Assembly (NCBI RefSeq): GCF_014467015.1
Contig: NZ_CP058559.1
Location: 1,674,001 to 1,738,000 of the forward strand
Origin: Alkalicella caledoniensis
GTDB lineage: Bacteria > Bacillota > Proteinivoracia > Proteinivoracales > Proteinivoracaceae
DNA: 64,000 nucleotides
Direction of reading: 5' to 3'
Shown: piece by piece, positions 22,680-54,461 of the stretch
Position numbering within the stretch: position 1 is the first letter of the stretch
How the letters are laid out: the number at the start of each line of letters is the position of its first letter
Made by a program: the position numbers and the translations under genes
Notes under the pieces: generated by a model
The model's database searches: none
What the model saw: the letters and a program-made list of their open reading frames with translations, nothing else
Told to the model about the DNA's origin: nothing

Positions 22680-22782
22680 TTTCATACCTCCTTTTCGCCC
22701 ATTTTTAAAACGGACATACTCAGCAAAAACTATCCTCTTTTTAGAGGTAACCTTCTGCCTCATCGCAAGTCACAACATTTCT

Positions 22783-24170: not shown

Positions 24171-26243
24171 TTACTTGCCTTTTTCCATTATTTCATCTGC
24201 AATGCTTTTTGGCACTTGATCATAATGGGAGAATTCCATGGCGTAAACGCCTCTACCTTGAGTTTTAGAACGAAGGTCAGTTGCATAACCGAACATGGAT
24301 GCTAGTGGTACAAATGCTCTGATTACTTGAGCACCGGCTCTAGATTCCATTCCATCAATTCTACCTCTTCTTGAGTTAATATCACCCATAACATCACCCA
24401 TATACTCTTCAGGTACAGTTACTTCTACCTTCATAGTAGGTTCTAGGATAGCTGGATTAGCTTTTTTCATAGCTTCTTTAAAAGCCATGGAACCAGCTAT
24501 CTTAAACGCCATCTCAGATGAGTCAACATCATGGTATGATCCGTCAACCAAAGTAACTTTGAAGTCAAGCACGGGATATCCTGCAAGGATACCGTTCTTA
24601 GAAGCTTCTTGGATACCTTGATCAACTGGGTTGATGAATTCTTTAGGAATAGCTCCACCAACAACTTTGTTTTCAAATAAGTATCCTTCGCCTGGTTCCC
24701 TTGGAGATAGTTCAATCCAAACATGACCGAATTGTCCTCTACCACCGGACTGACGTACGAATTTACCTTCTGCTTTAACTTCTTTAGTGATGGTTTCTTT
24801 GTATGCAACTTGTGGGTTACCTACATTAGCCTTCACTTTGAATTCTCTAAGCATACGGTCAACAATTATATCTAAGTGAAGCTCACCCATACCAGCGATT
24901 ATAACTTGGCCAGTCTCTTCGTTAGTATAAGTTTTAAATGTTGGATCCTCTTCAGCAAGTTTAGCTAGCGCTATACCCATTTTCTCTTGGTCAGCTTTAG
25001 TAGCAGGTTCAATTGCTACTGAGATAACTGGCTCAGGGAAAACCATGGCTTCTAGGATAACTGGTTTTGCATCGTCACAAAGAGTGTCACCAGTTGTTGT
25101 ATCTTTAAGACCAACAGCTGCGGCAATATCACCAGTGAAAACCTCGGTGATTTCTTCTCTGTGGTTAGCATGCATTTGAAGGATACGTCCGATTCTTTCT
25201 TTTTTACCCTTTGTGGAGTTATATACGTAAGAACCAGATTTTAAAGTACCAGAGTAAACCCTAAAGAATGCTAGTTTACCAACATATGGGTCACTCATGA
25301 TTTTAAATGCCAATGCTGAGAAAGGTTCTTCGTCACTTGCAACTCTAACGATCTCTTCTTCAGTGTCCATCTCAACACCTTTAATAGGTGGTATGTCAAG
25401 GGGTGATGGCATATAATCAACTACTGCATCTAGTAGAATAGGAACACCTTTGTTTTTGTAAGAAGAACCACATAAAACTGGTACTATTGTTGTATCACAG
25501 GTACCTTTTCTAAGGGCTTTCTTAATCTCTTCTAGGGTAAATTCTTCACCTTCTAGATACTTCATCATTAATTCTTCATCGGTCTCCGCAACTGCTTCAA
25601 GCAGTTGTTCTCTGTACTTGCCTGCAATCTCTTGTAGGTCTTCAGGAATATCAACTGTTTCAACTTGAGTGCCTAAATCGTCTTTATAAACGTAGGCTTT
25701 CATTATAACTAAGTCAACCATTCCTTGGAAGTTGTCTTCTGCTCCGATAGGAAGTTGGATAGGTACAGCATTAGCTTTTAATCTGTCTCTCATCATCCCT
25801 ACAGTTCTGAAGAAATCAGCTCCAGTTATGTCCATTTTGTTTACATAGGCCATTCTCGGAACACGATACTTGTCCGCTTGTCTCCAAACAGTCTCTGATT
25901 GTGGCTCTACACCACCTTTTGCACAAAAAACACCTACTGCACCGTCAAGTACGCGGAGGGACCTTTCAACTTCTACTGTAAAGTCCACGTGTCCAGGTGT
26001 ATCTATGATGTTTATCCTGTGATCTTTCCACTGAGCTGTAGTCGCAGCTGAAGTAATGGTAATACCACGCTCTTGTTCTTGAACCATCCAGTCCATGGTA
26101 GCAGCACCATCATGAACCTCGCCTAGTTTATGAACCTTACCTGTGTAGAACAAAATACGTTCTGTGGTAGTGGTTTTACCAGCATCGATATGAGCCATGA
26201 TACCTATATTTCTTGTTCTTGCTAAGGAAAATTGTCTGGGCAT
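24171..26243 (-). CDS. fusA: Elongation factor G
   Basis: Translocation GTPase, 690 aa, five-domain layout. G1 [14 protein letters not shown] (near residues 17-30), G2 region [12 protein letters not shown]3 [10 protein letters not shown]4 NKMDITGAD. Domain IV contains [17 protein letters not shown]. Between rpsG and tuf as in the classical str operon. Confidence 0.98.
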
Positions 26244-31392: not shown

Positions 31393-34300
31393 TTAAATGT
31401 CATCATCTTCAGATGTAAAAACATCTTCTTCTTTGAATTTAGACTTCTTTACTTTTTTACCTTTAGGCATGTACTCATCATATTCATCGTCGTACTCATC
31501 AAAATCTTCATCCTCGAAGTCTTCATCATCAGCGAAATCCGTTGAGTCACTATCTGGCAAGTCAATTTCTATCTCTTCATCTAGATCTTGATCATCATCT
31601 AAATCTTGGTCTTGATCATCATCAGATTCAATCCCACTATCTTCGCCACCATCTAGTATATCATCGTCAATTGGCTTAGGTATTGTAGCAACTGGTTTTT
31701 TCACGGGTTCTTCTTCTGTACCCTCTAAGTTGACTTCAAGCTCCCTTGGTTCGTCGTCCTCATCACTTTCACGGATTTCAAGTTCTTCTTGGTTCTCAGT
31801 TAAGATCTTAACATCCATCCCTAAACTCTGAAGCTCTTTTATAAGAACTTTAAAGGATTCAGGAACTCCAGGCTCTGGAATGTTCTCGCCTTTTACAATG
31901 GCCTCATAGGTTTTAACACGACCAACAACGTCATCGGACTTAACAGTAAGTATTTCTTGAAGGGTATGGGATGCACCGTATGCTTCAAGGGCCCAAACCT
32001 CCATCTCACCAAATCTTTGACCACCAAACTGTGCTTTACCACCTAGGGGTTGTTGAGTAACAAGGGAGTATGGTCCTGTGGAACGAGCATGAATTTTATC
32101 ATCAACTAAGTGGGCAAGTTTTAACATATACACATAACCTACTGTTACTTCGTTGTCAAATCTATCCCCAGTTCTACCGTCATAAAGTACTGTTTTTCCG
32201 TTTTCAGGTAACCCAGCTTCTTTTAGCATATCAAAAACATCTTGCTCATTTGCACCATCAAAAACTGGTGTTGCCATATGGAATCCTAGTTTTTCAGCTG
32301 CCCAACCTAAATGAGTCTCAAGTACCTGACCTATATTCATCCTTGATGGTACACCAAGTGGATTAAGAACAACTTGAACTGGTGTTCCGTCAGCTAAGTA
32401 TGGCATATCTTCTTCTGGTAGAATTCTGGCTATAACACCTTTGTTACCATGACGCCCTGCCATTTTATCCCCTTCAGAAATTTTGCGCTTTTGAGCGATG
32501 AATACTCTTACAAGTTGGTTAACACCTGGTGGCAATTCGTCACCATCTTCTCTGGTAAATACCTTTACATCTACAATTCTACCAGCTTCACCATGGGGTA
32601 CTCTTAGGGAAGTATCTCTAACTTCTCTAGCCTTCTCACCAAAGATAGCCCGTAGAAGTCTTTCTTCTGCTGTAAGCTCAGTTTCACCTTTTGGAGTAAC
32701 TTTTCCTACTAGGATATCTCCTGGTCTAACTTCAGCACCTATACGAATTATGCCTCTTTCATCAAGGTCCTTAAGTGCGTCTTCACCTACGTTGGGAATC
32801 TCTCTGGTTATTTCCTCAGGCCCAAGTTTTGTATCCCTAGACTCTGCTTCGTATTCCTCAATGTGAATAGATGTAAATACGTCTTCTTTAACTAGCTTTT
32901 CACTTAGTAATATAGCATCCTCATAGTTGTAACCTTCCCACGTCATAAATGCTACTAAAACATTTTTACCTAAAGCTAATTCGCCTTTTTCAGTGGAAGG
33001 ACCATCGGCTAAGACATCACCTTTTTCAACTCTTTCGCCATGGGATACTATTGCCCTTTGATTCATGCACATACCTTGGTTTGATCTTTTAAACTTAGTT
33101 AGATAGTAAGTATCCTTACCATTGTAGGTGCTTTGAGGGAAAATCTCTTTGCTAATTCCATTTATCAATCTATCTTGGTTATCTCCAGGGTTATCACGTT
33201 TAATGGTAATTTCTGTTGCAGTAACTTTTTCAACTACACCAGATTCCATAGCCACGACCACTACTCCTGAGTCTTTTGCAGCTCTATGCTCCATACCTGT
33301 ACCTACAAAAGGAGCTGCAGTGGTTAGAAGGGGAACTGCTTGACGTTGCATGTTCGCACCCATAAGTGCACGGTTAGCATCATCATTTTCCAAGAAAGGA
33401 ATTAAACCCGTAGCCACACTAAATACCTGTTTAGGTGATACGTCCATAAAGTCAACGTTATTAGGTGACTTTGTAAGGATTTCATGTCTATATCTAGTAG
33501 TTACTTTATCTAAGGTAAAATAACCGTTTTCATCTAAAGGAGCATTAGCTTGAGCAACAACGTATTGATCCTCATCATCAGCAGTGAGGTATACAATCTC
33601 ATCTAGAACTCTACCTTCTGCTTTATTTACTTTGCGATAAGGTGTTTCCATAAATCCATACTCGTTTACCCTAGCATAGGTACTAAGTGATCCTATAAGC
33701 CCAATGTTTGGACCCTCAGGTGTTTCAATAGGACACATTCTACCATAATGGGAGTGATGTACGTCACGAACTTCAAAACCGGCTCTATCCCTACTAAGAC
33801 CACCAGGTCCAAGGGCACTTAGTCTTCTTTTGTGGGTTAGTTCTGCCAGTGGGTTGTGCTGATCCATAAACTGAGACAATTGACTGCTACCAAAAAATTC
33901 TTTTATAGCTGCAATAACAGGTCTGATATTGATTAGAGCTTGTGGTGTTATTGAGTCAATATCTTGAATGGTCATACGCTCTCTTACAACTCTTTCCATC
34001 CGAGATAGACCTATCCTGAACTGGTTTTGTAATAACTCACCAACACATCTAAGTCTACGGTTACCTAAGTGGTCTATATCATCTGTATGACCTAAGTCAT
34101 CCATAAGGTTCAATAAATACCCTACGGCGGCTATAATATCTTCCCTAGTTACATGTAGCATGTTCTTAGGTTGTTTCCCATTACTTATAACTGGTACTAG
34201 CTTTCCATCTGCGTTAAATACTTTTATAACTGCAGGAATACCTTCAGTCTCTAAAATGGTATCTAATAATTCTTCTTCTAGCAGTTGACCTGCTTCTGCC

Positions 34301-35199
34301 ACTATCTCACCATCTTCTGTGACAATAGTTTCAGCTAATTTCTTGTTTAGCAATCTCCATTTAGCAGTTAGCTTCTTATTTAGTTTATACCTACCAACAG
34401 GGGCTAAGTCATAACGACGAGCATCAAAAAACAGGGACTCTAGTAGCGACCTAGCATTTTCTAGGTTAGCAGGCTCCCCTGGTCTTAGCCTTTTATAGAC
34501 TTCTAGCACACCTGATTCAAAGTTATCAGTATGATCTTTCTCTAAAGTATTTTTAAGCCTAGCATCGTCACCATAAACATCAAGTATCTCCTGATTTGTG
34601 CCATAGCCTAAAGCCCTTAGTAGTACTGTAGCAGGAAGTTTCCTTGTCCTATCTACCCTTACATATAATATGTCGTTACTGTCTGTTTCAAACTCCAACC
34701 ACGCTCCACGGTTTGGAATAATGGTTCCGAAAAATAAGTCCTTACCTGCTGTATCCTTTTGAGTGTTAAAGTACACACCAGGTGATCTTACTAGCTGACT
34801 TACTATAACTCTTTCTGCACCGTTAACGATAAATGTACCGTTTGCTGTCATGAGTGGGAAATCACCCATAAATACTTCCTGTTCCTTAACTTCTCCAGTT
34901 TCTTGGTTAATTAACCTTACTTGTACTCTTAATGGTGCGGAATATGTAGTATCCCTCTCCTTACACTCATCAACAGAATACTTCGGTTTTCCTAGTTGAT
35001 ATCCAATGAATTCTAAAACTAGGTTCCCTGTAAAGTCCTTAATTGGGGAGATATCCTTAAACATTTCATTTAGCCCAACTTCTAAAAACCAATCGTATGA
35101 GCTTTTTTGGATTTCAATCAGGTCAGGAAAATCAATGATTTCGTGAATCTTAGAAAAGGATTGCCTAACCCTTTTTCCAACTTTTACGGGTTTTACCAT
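31393..35199 (-). CDS. rpoB: DNA-directed RNA polymerase subunit beta with long acidic C-terminal tail
   Basis: Beta subunit, about 1268 aa from ATG 35199 ([19 protein letters not shown]). The rifampicin region [31 protein letters not shown] has the sensitive-type residues, and the C-terminal [20 protein letters not shown] clamp region is normal. Beyond the usual end near [15 protein letters not shown] there are about 130 further residues, extremely rich in Asp and Glu, closing with a basic patch ([13 protein letters not shown]) and EDDDI. Acidic RpoB tails occur in some Firmicutes but this one is long. An in-frame GTG four codons upstream is an alternative start. Confidence 0.97.
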
Positions 35200-35260
35200 C
35201 TGCCTCTTCACCCCTTATAAATGTTGTAAACAACTTATTATTGTAATTTTTCCTTCATCT

Positions 35261-35326
35261 GGTGTAATATTCCCTATATATAGTATTTTTATTCGATATA
35301 CTGGTAATAAAGGGAAAATCTACACC
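35261..35326 (-). promoter_or_regulatory. 5'-terminal hairpin in the rpoB leader
   Basis: The outer arms GGTGTA (35261-35266) and TACACC (35321-35326) are complementary and continue inward with ATATTCCC/GGGAAAAT and a TAGTAT/ATACTG apex. It would occupy the first 70 nt of the transcript from the promoter at 35341-35369, well ahead of the rpoB start. It has no T run, so it is not a simple terminator. Confidence 0.5.
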
Positions 35327-35340
35327 ATTAGCAATTTACA

Positions 35341-35369
35341 ATACTATCACAAAATATTTTCATTGTCAA
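35341..35369 (-). promoter_or_regulatory. Promoter of rpoB-rpoC
   Basis: On the minus strand TTGACA (35364-35369) and TAGTAT (35341-35346) are 17 bp apart. It lies in a 345-nt gap between rplL and rpoB, downstream of the rplL terminator, so rpoBC appears to be transcribed separately from rplJL. Nothing else coding is seen in this gap. Confidence 0.6.
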
Positions 35370-35503: not shown

Positions 35504-35529
35504 AAAGCGCCCTGGTATAAGGGCGCTTT
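35504..35529 (-). terminator. Rho-independent terminator after rplL
   Basis: Stem AAAGCGCCC (35504-35512) pairs with GGGCGCTTT (35521-35529), followed on the minus strand by TTTTTC. It starts 16 nt after the rplL stop and separates rplJL from rpoBC. Confidence 0.85.
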
Positions 35530-35544
35530 GTTCTTAAATGATAA

Positions 35545-35919
35545 TTACTTAACTTCAGCAGTACCGCCAGCTTCAGTAATTTTAGCTTTAATAGCTTCAG
35601 CATCTTCTTTAGATACTTTTTCTTTAATTGGTTTTGGAGCTCCGTCTACAACTTCTTTAGCTTCTTTTAAGCCAAGGCCAGTAATTTCACGTACAGCTTT
35701 GATAACTTGTACTTTTTTGTCTCCACCAGAAGTTAAAATTACATCGAATTCAGTTTGCTCTTCAGCAGCAGCTGGGCCACCAGCAGCAGGAGCAGCAGCC
35801 ATTGCTACAGGAGCAGCAGCAGATACACCAAACTCTTCTTCACAAGCTTTTACTAACTCTGATAATTCTAATACTGTTAAACCTTTAATTGTCTCTAAAA
35901 TTTCTTGAACTTTTGACAT
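35545..35919 (-). CDS. rplL: 50S ribosomal protein L7/L12 (bL12)
   Basis: Stalk protein that recruits translational GTPases. 124 aa with the N-terminal dimer domain ([20 protein letters not shown]), an Ala/Gly/Pro hinge ([20 protein letters not shown]) and the C-terminal domain ending [20 protein letters not shown] onward. Ends in a strong terminator. Confidence 0.97.
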
Positions 35920-36535: not shown

Positions 36536-36570
36536 ATTGCCACCTCCTTCATAAGTGGGGTATTACAACC

Positions 36571-36603
36571 AAAAAGTGCCCTTTCCGAAGTCAGAAAGGG
36601 CAC
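36571..36603 (-). terminator. Attenuator terminator in the rplJ leader
   Basis: Stem GTGCCCTTTC (36576-36585) pairs with GAAAGGGCAC (36594-36603), followed on the minus strand by TTTTT. It is between the L10-leader aptamer and the rplJ start, and so could set the level of rplJL transcription. Confidence 0.8.
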
Positions 36604-36698
36604 ATATAGTCAAATACGTTTACCTTTCAACCTCGGCAGGATATTAAGCCTTAAAGGCACCTACTGTCTTAAGTTGAATCATATTTAATTTCAACAAC
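36604..36698 (-). ncRNA. L10 ribosomal protein leader
   Basis: The minus-strand leader contains AGACAGTAGGTGCC, then GGCTTAATATCCTGCCGAGG. This is the recognised core of the L10(L12)4-binding leader of Gram-positive rplJL operons, followed by the attenuator hairpin. Binding of the L10-L12 complex is the established control mechanism for this class. Confidence 0.85.
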
Positions 36699-53381: not shown

Positions 53382-54461
53382 TTAAACGTGCCTATCTAGT
53401 AGCACTTGTTGTTGCAACCTACGCAATCCATCCTTTATGGCTCGAGCTCTCACCTCACCAATTCCGTCTACTTCATCTAGCTCCTCTATGGTGGCTATTA
53501 AGATATTGTGCAGTCCACCTAGTTCCTCTACAGTGTTTTCAATTACAGGCATTGGCAAACGTGGTATTTTGTTTAAAATTCGATGCCCTTTAGATAGTAC
53601 TGGCTGCTCTAGGGTTGAAACGCTTCCTCCGTAGCCTAAAATCTTACTTATTATTGTTAATTCAAGTAGGTCTTCTGAGCTTAGGGCCGCCATGCTTTTA
53701 AGGACATCTTCAGGTGCCTTTTCGTCATTATTTGCGATATAATCTTTAATGACTAGGTACCCTTCTTCTTCTACATTAGCTATTAACTCTTCTAGCTGCA
53801 TCCTAATAAGTCTTCCTTCATCTCCTAGCTCTACAATGTACTTTCCTAGTTCACCAACTATACGTAGAACCATTTCATAACGTTGTAGAACATTAACAAT
53901 GTCACCAATATTAACCATTTCTTCAAATTCTAGTGCGCTTAGGTTTACAAGTCCTTGCTCTAAAACTGATCGGTATTTGTCTAGGGTTTGTATAGCTTGA
54001 TTTGCTTTGTTTAAAATTACACTTATATCCTTTAATGCATACTTCATATAGCCTTTATATAAGGTAATAATATTCCTCCTTTGAGATATGGAAATAACAA
54101 GCTCCCCTGTTTGTCTAGCTACCCTTTCAGCGGTTCTATGTCTTATTCCAGTTTCCGTTGATGCTATGGATGAGTCGGGAATTAGCTGAGTGTTAGCATA
54201 CAATATCTTCTTTGCGTCGTAACTTAGGATAATAGCTCCATCCATCTTTGCAAGTTCGTATAAATTTGCTGGAGTAAAGTCGCTGTTTATATAAAATCCC
54301 CCATCAACTAATTCCTGCAACTGTGGGCTCTCACCTAGCACAATCAGAGCGCCCGTTTTAGCCCTTAATACATTCTCTAGGCCCTCACGTAGTGCCGTCC
54401 CTGGTGCCACAAGCTGAAGGGTCTTTAATAATTTTTCTTCTTCTCCTCGTAATGTGCTCAT
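53382..54461 (-). CDS. disA: DNA integrity scanning diadenylate cyclase DisA
   Basis: Synthesises c-di-AMP from two ATP and scans DNA for branched structures. N-terminal DAC domain has DGAIILSYD and [14 protein letters not shown] (the DGA and RHR motifs). The C-terminal helix-hairpin-helix region is [20 protein letters not shown]. 359 aa from ATG 54461. Follows radA by 4 nt; RadA is a DisA-inhibiting partner in B. subtilis. Confidence 0.96.

Follow-up and report, generated by a model that had tools for sequence, protein, structure and literature searches.

The rpoBC leader of Alkalicella caledoniensis very probably carries two tandem promoters: a sigma-A promoter and, embedded downstream of it, a promoter of the forespore sigma-F/sigma-G type. 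The leader was analysed within a window of 64,000 nt (contig NZ_CP058559.1 of assembly GCF_014467015.1, positions 1,674,001-1,738,000), and the genome containing this window consists of one contig of 3.70 Mb. The initial annotation had drawn attention to an RNA hairpin in the leader. Judged by the comparisons below, the content of this stretch that is conserved across the phylum appears to be the forespore-type promoter rather than the hairpin.

The promoter, the hairpin, rpoB and rplL were all located on the minus strand of the window (Table 1). The likely ATG of rpoB lies 9 nt past the ribosome-binding site AAGGGGTG and corrects the GTG of the open reading frame list; AGGGGTGA was among the top enriched k-mers of rpoB leaders, near position -16. 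The translation of rpoB ended in a long, acidic, repetitive C-terminal tail (31393-31800, minus strand). Rfam matches in the window were limited to one L10 leader, four tRNAs and one S10 leader.

Table 1. Features of the rpoBC locus and neighbouring leaders in the window.
Feature	Position	Strand	Basis or detail
rplL	35545..35919	-	Open reading frame list; upstream of the terminator-like hairpin
Intrinsic-terminator-like hairpin after rplL	35504..35529	-	10 pairs, GC-rich; equivalents with T runs in L005-L008
Housekeeping sigma-A-type rpoBC promoter	35341..35369	-	TTGACA-N17-TAGTAT with extended -10 TG; -35 TTGACA 35369-35364, TG 35349-35348, -10 TAGTAT 35346-35341, spacer 17 nt
Conserved TG of the initially transcribed sequence	35332..35333	-	8-9 nt past the -10; start placed at about 35335 by usual promoter spacing
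RNA hairpin in the sigma-A transcript (family level)	35260..35327	-	Closing stem TGGTGTAG/TTACACCA plus inner TTCCC/GGGAA
-35-like element GAATAA of the putative forespore promoter	35289..35294	-	Second block; found at rpoB in the five family genomes
Extended -10-like element GGGAATATTA of the putative forespore promoter	35265..35274	-	Predicted start about 35260-35259
Ribosome-binding site of rpoB, AAGGGGTG	35209..35216	-	Read from the sequence
rpoB from the likely ATG	31393..35199	-	Open reading frame list begins at GTG 35211; ATG 35199 read from the sequence
L10 leader (RF00557) of the rplJL operon	36561-36691	-	Rfam
S10-Clostridia leader	22692-22771	-	Rfam, just above threshold

The family set comprised the window and four other genomes (L005-L008) from two other genera, in total five genomes of three genera. 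Gene order was common to all four relatives: rplL, a GC-rich terminator, a TTGAC promoter with an extended -10, ATTGCTAA, a pairing region, GGGAATAnTA, a purine-rich stretch and rpoB. Where the initial annotation placed a strong terminator, between rplJL and rpoBC, lies the GC-rich 10-pair hairpin. Terminator-like sites in the rplL-rpoB region were not more frequent than in shuffled sequence (one, against a shuffle mean of 1.8), although in 4/4 family relatives rplL was likewise followed by a GC-rich hairpin and T run. Between the promoter and rpoB the scan of the window for terminator-like sites was empty, and an intrinsic-terminator attenuator in this leader was ruled out on that ground.

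For comparison across Bacillota, rpoB upstream regions were collected from 80 named genome contigs and about 120 further genomes. A gene fragment (L097) and copies of the window (L001-L003) were excluded before 198 loci were counted. Seven of the 198 had no rpoB match and 32 of the other 191 were near-duplicates or too short, which left 159 leaders. One family genome, L006, was omitted from the leader set as redundant and was scored in the arm-pairing and matrix tests.

The TTGACA-N17-TAGTAT promoter previously described before rpoB was present at its position in the window, and a sigma-A-type promoter was found in 150 of the 159 non-redundant upstream regions. The promoter finder reported the best site within up to 420 nt and gave a bonus for an extended -10, so that individual assignments can err. 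The extended -10 TG was 99-100% conserved over the best 146 rpoB promoters, a value to be read with the finder's own preference for that TG. A second TG, 8-9 nt past the -10 at a position that the finder ignores, was also conserved over the 146 promoters (T 95%, G 97%). With a strict promoter form this downstream TG occurred in 104/109 rpoB promoters and in 0/13 other promoters of the same loci. Across nine whole genomes of the class, a pattern combining the promoter with TGC was found at rpoB in all nine, with one extra match in one genome, and the reversed pattern had no match. The TG was also present in 17 of 25 scorable rpoB promoters from the 30 non-sporulators examined; because most scorable non-sporulators keep it, the initially transcribed TG is independent of the element described further downstream. 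Candidate roles for it are start-site choice, promoter escape or slippage.

Several other features of the start region were noted. In eight leaders of Paenibacillus and similar type (L035, L044, L055, L068, L070, L081, L083 and L086) the start sequence AAATGTCA had a second copy some tens of nucleotides further downstream, preceded by CTTTAG. A leaderless small open reading frame at the sigma-A start was rejected, as reading frames were not conserved when the leader listing was inspected by eye. A second promoter copy at G000:314909 (79% match) was set aside as well, since it sits within a long open frame.

Downstream of the sigma-A promoter the predicted 66-nt hairpin was found, running from GGTGTA (35326-35321) to TACACC (35266-35261). 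Its closing stem, TGGTGTAG/TTACACCA, was predicted at 7-8 bp, slightly longer than the 6 bp first proposed, and no T run followed it, as had been claimed. Its folding energy was -17.5 kcal/mol, compared with a mean of -9.6 for shuffled sequences (z -3.03), and 2 of 200 shuffles were equally good. In a duplex test on the family genomes, pairing of the two arms exceeded that of shuffled 5' arms in 5/5 genomes (p <0.001, <0.001, <0.001, 0.03 and 0.004), and the best-pairing 3' arm came from the same genus in 5/5 rows. From these comparisons the hairpin is probably maintained within the family.

The same genomes also supplied evidence of the opposite kind. For the five sequences RNAalifold returned an energy of -3.33 kcal/mol and a covariation penalty of 1.12. 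Changes on both sides were seen in 1 of 11 pairs, so that column covariation was nearly nil. L007 had lost the TTTCCC arm yet retained GGGAATA, the 5' arm of L008 paired better with the partner from L007 than with its own, which was no better than those of L005 and L006, and the register of the hairpin relative to GGGAATA, as read from the folds, shifted between genera. The stem conservation that was to be sought in relatives was present as arm complementarity within the family, with little compensatory change, and the fold was not general beyond the family: over 128 rpoB leaders of Bacillota the mean fold z was -0.39, with 17 of the 128 below -2. The ribosome-binding site lies outside the hairpin and is left uncovered by it. 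An Rfam family for the rpoBC leader was ruled out, there being no match to it at the gathering threshold in the window or in 20 relatives, where no family other than the L10 leader matched. Against this evidence, and despite the fold score in the window and the pairing of the arms in every family genome, it seems unlikely that the hairpin itself is the functional content of the stretch, stabilising rpoBC mRNA or feeding back on core polymerase synthesis. The proposal of a dedicated autoregulatory or stability leader for rpoBC held as far as a dedicated leader with its own promoter is concerned, and was not supported as regards a general structured autoregulatory element, given the mean z, the weak covariation and the lack of an Rfam match. 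The likeliest role of the hairpin is in stability or spacing at the 5' end of the sigma-A transcript, and autoregulation by it found no support.

A linear element of fixed spacing was found within the hairpin: GNATAA-N14-GGNAAtAaTA, at 35294-35265 on the minus strand. It emerged from a de novo motif search on leaders trimmed of the start region and of any terminator. The motif GG.AAtAaTA was recovered in about 92% of 144 leaders, with a log-likelihood of 199.5 against approximately 30 in each of four shuffled sets; the copy in the window was GGGAATATTAC at 35274. When the leaders were stacked without gaps, a second block with the sequence GNATAA appeared 20 nt upstream of the motif. The motif was good in 106 leaders, and the second block was strong in 75 of these, lying at offset -20 in 49 and at -19 in 16, whereas shuffled segments gave 31 second blocks spread flat over all offsets. 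If the two blocks are taken as a promoter, the spacer from GNATAA to AAtAaT measures 17 or 16 nt and a G occupies the extended -10 position.

The element lies within the transcribed leader and in one orientation, good matches falling 33-117 nt (5th-95th percentile) past the sigma-A start, and these are properties that an RNA-binding or pausing signal of the nascent transcript would also have. Base-pairing probability revealed no conserved secondary structure around the two blocks, and an RNA motif around GGNAAUAAUA was ruled out for this reason; the lack of structure together with the fixed, promoter-like spacing indicates a DNA site. The same arrangement of blocks also marked the region before sigG and followed the sporulation sigma genes across the phylum (below), and with all three observations against it a signal in the RNA, in place of a promoter, is improbable.

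The sigma-F/sigma-G consensus consists of a -35 of GNATA and a -10 of GGNNANANTA, with about 15 nt between them. The window's GAATAA-N14-GGGAATATTA matched this consensus and its spacing, and the spacing was fixed across the phylum. For sigma-F promoters, conservation of a G ahead of the -10 has been described (PMC3789822). A two-block matrix was built from 34 training rpoB leaders of named genomes with a motif score above 5, and the regions upstream of sigG in 30 genomes were scored with it. Scores of at least 10 were obtained in 25/30 and of at least 8 in 28/30, with the sites located 44-95 nt before the conserved N-terminal motif in 29/30 genomes; in sigG coding sequence of the same length, 0/30 had a score of at least 8. 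The sigG gene is transcribed by sigma-F and then by sigma-G in B. subtilis (PMC3789822), and a forespore promoter is described for C. difficile sigG (PMC7438776).

The exact bipartite pattern occurred at three sites in the window's genome: at rpoB, before a Gin/CsfB gene and before a MecA_N-domain gene. The identity of the gin/csfB gene was supported by PF10764 (E 6e-12), and csfB of B. subtilis belongs to the sigma-F genes and has a GTATA / GGGGAGGCTA promoter (PMC4383634). Like the sigG and csfB/gin promoters, the rpoBC site has a GNATA-type -35, a 15-nt spacer to GG and a -10 of the form GGNNANANTA. It differs from them in that it would drive a housekeeping operon from inside a sigma-A leader and, within the family, in that it is embedded in hairpin-forming sequence. 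In 25 genomes the exact pattern had 42 matches, five of them at rpoB, against 15 for the control. Outside rpoB, the five family genomes held 5 sites against 8 for the reversed control; with no excess there, a wide regulon of the exact pattern was ruled out. In two family genomes (L226 and L227) a forespore-type match was followed by a gene for a small zinc-ribbon-like protein, for which no Pfam family scored above the cut-off.

The bipartite pattern was present at rpoB in 5/5 family genomes, with scores of 15.7, 15.7, 17.6 and 18.2 in the relatives and 17.0 in the window, the latter being the best score on either strand of the 64 kb. Other forespore-promoter-like sites of the window were located at 54063 (plus strand) and at 24386, 63139 and 2608 (minus strand), with scores of 13.6-14.7. 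The region is AT-rich and sites elsewhere in the window reach 14-15, as would be expected if the element arose by chance or from AT-richness and the hairpin were incidental. This account is very improbable nonetheless, as the de novo motif stood far above its shuffles, the orthologous site was kept throughout the family, and held-out genomes and the strand control both supported the site.

The distribution of the rpoB site was compared with that of the sporulation sigma genes. In the window's genome sigG scored above its cut-off, and sigF-family matches reached E 5e-92, under the curated cut-off set for the family. The sigF-family searches divided 249 genomes into two groups, and presence of sigF/G was called at E 1e-60, a cut chosen after a gap in the score distribution had been seen. 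Thirty-seven genomes were without a strong match; 30 of these were examined and seven gave no locus. Three genomes (L091, L092 and L096) in which sigF had not been searched were removed from the test genomes. A site scoring at least 10 was found at rpoB in 66/96 genomes with sigF/G and in 6/30 without; when the regions of the former were read on the opposite strand, 7/96 reached this score. By family, with kinship handled solely by this counting of families, a majority was positive in 39/58 families with sigF/G and in 2/18 without (Fisher p 2.8e-5). Exceptions were seen on both sides. Thirty of the 96 sigF/G genomes scored below 10 at rpoB, and three of the six site-positive genomes without sigF/G came from one family and had fragmented assemblies; another examined genome of that family carried both sigF/G and the rpoB site. 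The single Bacillaceae-type leader scanned (L196) had a weak site (10.2).

Tandem promoters would act on this leader as follows, with both start positions placed by usual promoter spacing. In growing cells sigma-A polymerase would start at about 35335 and produce a leader of about 136 nt with a 5'-proximal hairpin. Inside the developing spore, polymerase carrying sigma-F (or sigma-G) would start at about 35260, in the 3' arm of the hairpin; this start is expected 6-8 nt past GGNAATAATA of the -10-like element and some 75 nt from the sigma-A start. The resulting leader of about 60 nt would retain the ribosome-binding site and lack the hairpin. If the site is active and read by one of these sigma factors, it may supply beta and beta-prime in the forespore.

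A further candidate control was found in other leaders. A conserved terminator-like hairpin, AAGCGAGG...CCTTGCTTTT, lay between these promoters and rpoB in 53/159 leaders as counted with one search pattern, and the 9-mer AGCGAGGTT occurred in 36 leaders against 0.18 expected. This hairpin was located about 120-65 nt before rpoB in, for example, L018, L030, L043, L063, L132 and L147, and was absent from the window's rpoBC leader. It is a candidate rpoBC attenuator, and because its letters are conserved beyond the needs of pairing a recognised sequence is suggested. Across the phylum, rpoBC may therefore be controlled in as many as three layers, by a sigma-A promoter whose start sequence is specific to rpoB, by a promoter of the forespore type and by an attenuator.

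Two known systems are comparable. The adjacent rplJL operon also has a structured leader in the same gene cluster, the L10 leader (RF00557), but at the gathering threshold the rpoBC leader matched no Rfam family, RF00557 included. In E. coli the rplL-rpoB intergenic region holds an attenuator and an RNase III hairpin, and rpoB is reached by readthrough from ribosomal-protein promoters. Both regions thus place a control element between the two genes; where E. coli relies on readthrough, the window has a terminator followed by a separate promoter for rpoBC. Full-text searches of an open-access library found neither a forespore promoter of rpoBC nor this leader described in print, and rpoB is not named in the main text of two C. 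difficile regulon papers (PMC7438776, PMC3789822).

The rpoB gene is treated as a housekeeping gene. In a sporulation study of C. difficile, RT-qPCR of sigma mutants was normalised to rpoB (PMC3738446). If the forespore promoter holds true in spore-forming Clostridia (C. difficile being outside this genome sample), normalisation to rpoB would be unsafe there. The prediction is precise as to promoter position, start site and the genomes concerned. A broader and more speculative proposal, doubtful as a whole, is that the rpoBC forespore promoter keeps core polymerase synthesis tied to spore development across Bacillota, with sigma-F/sigma-G driving synthesis of their own partner enzyme, and that, separately, the rpoB-specific TG could let polymerase sense its own level at the start or at escape. 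The tandem arrangement, if true, would show how the forespore obtains the core polymerase that it needs in late development and for outgrowth.
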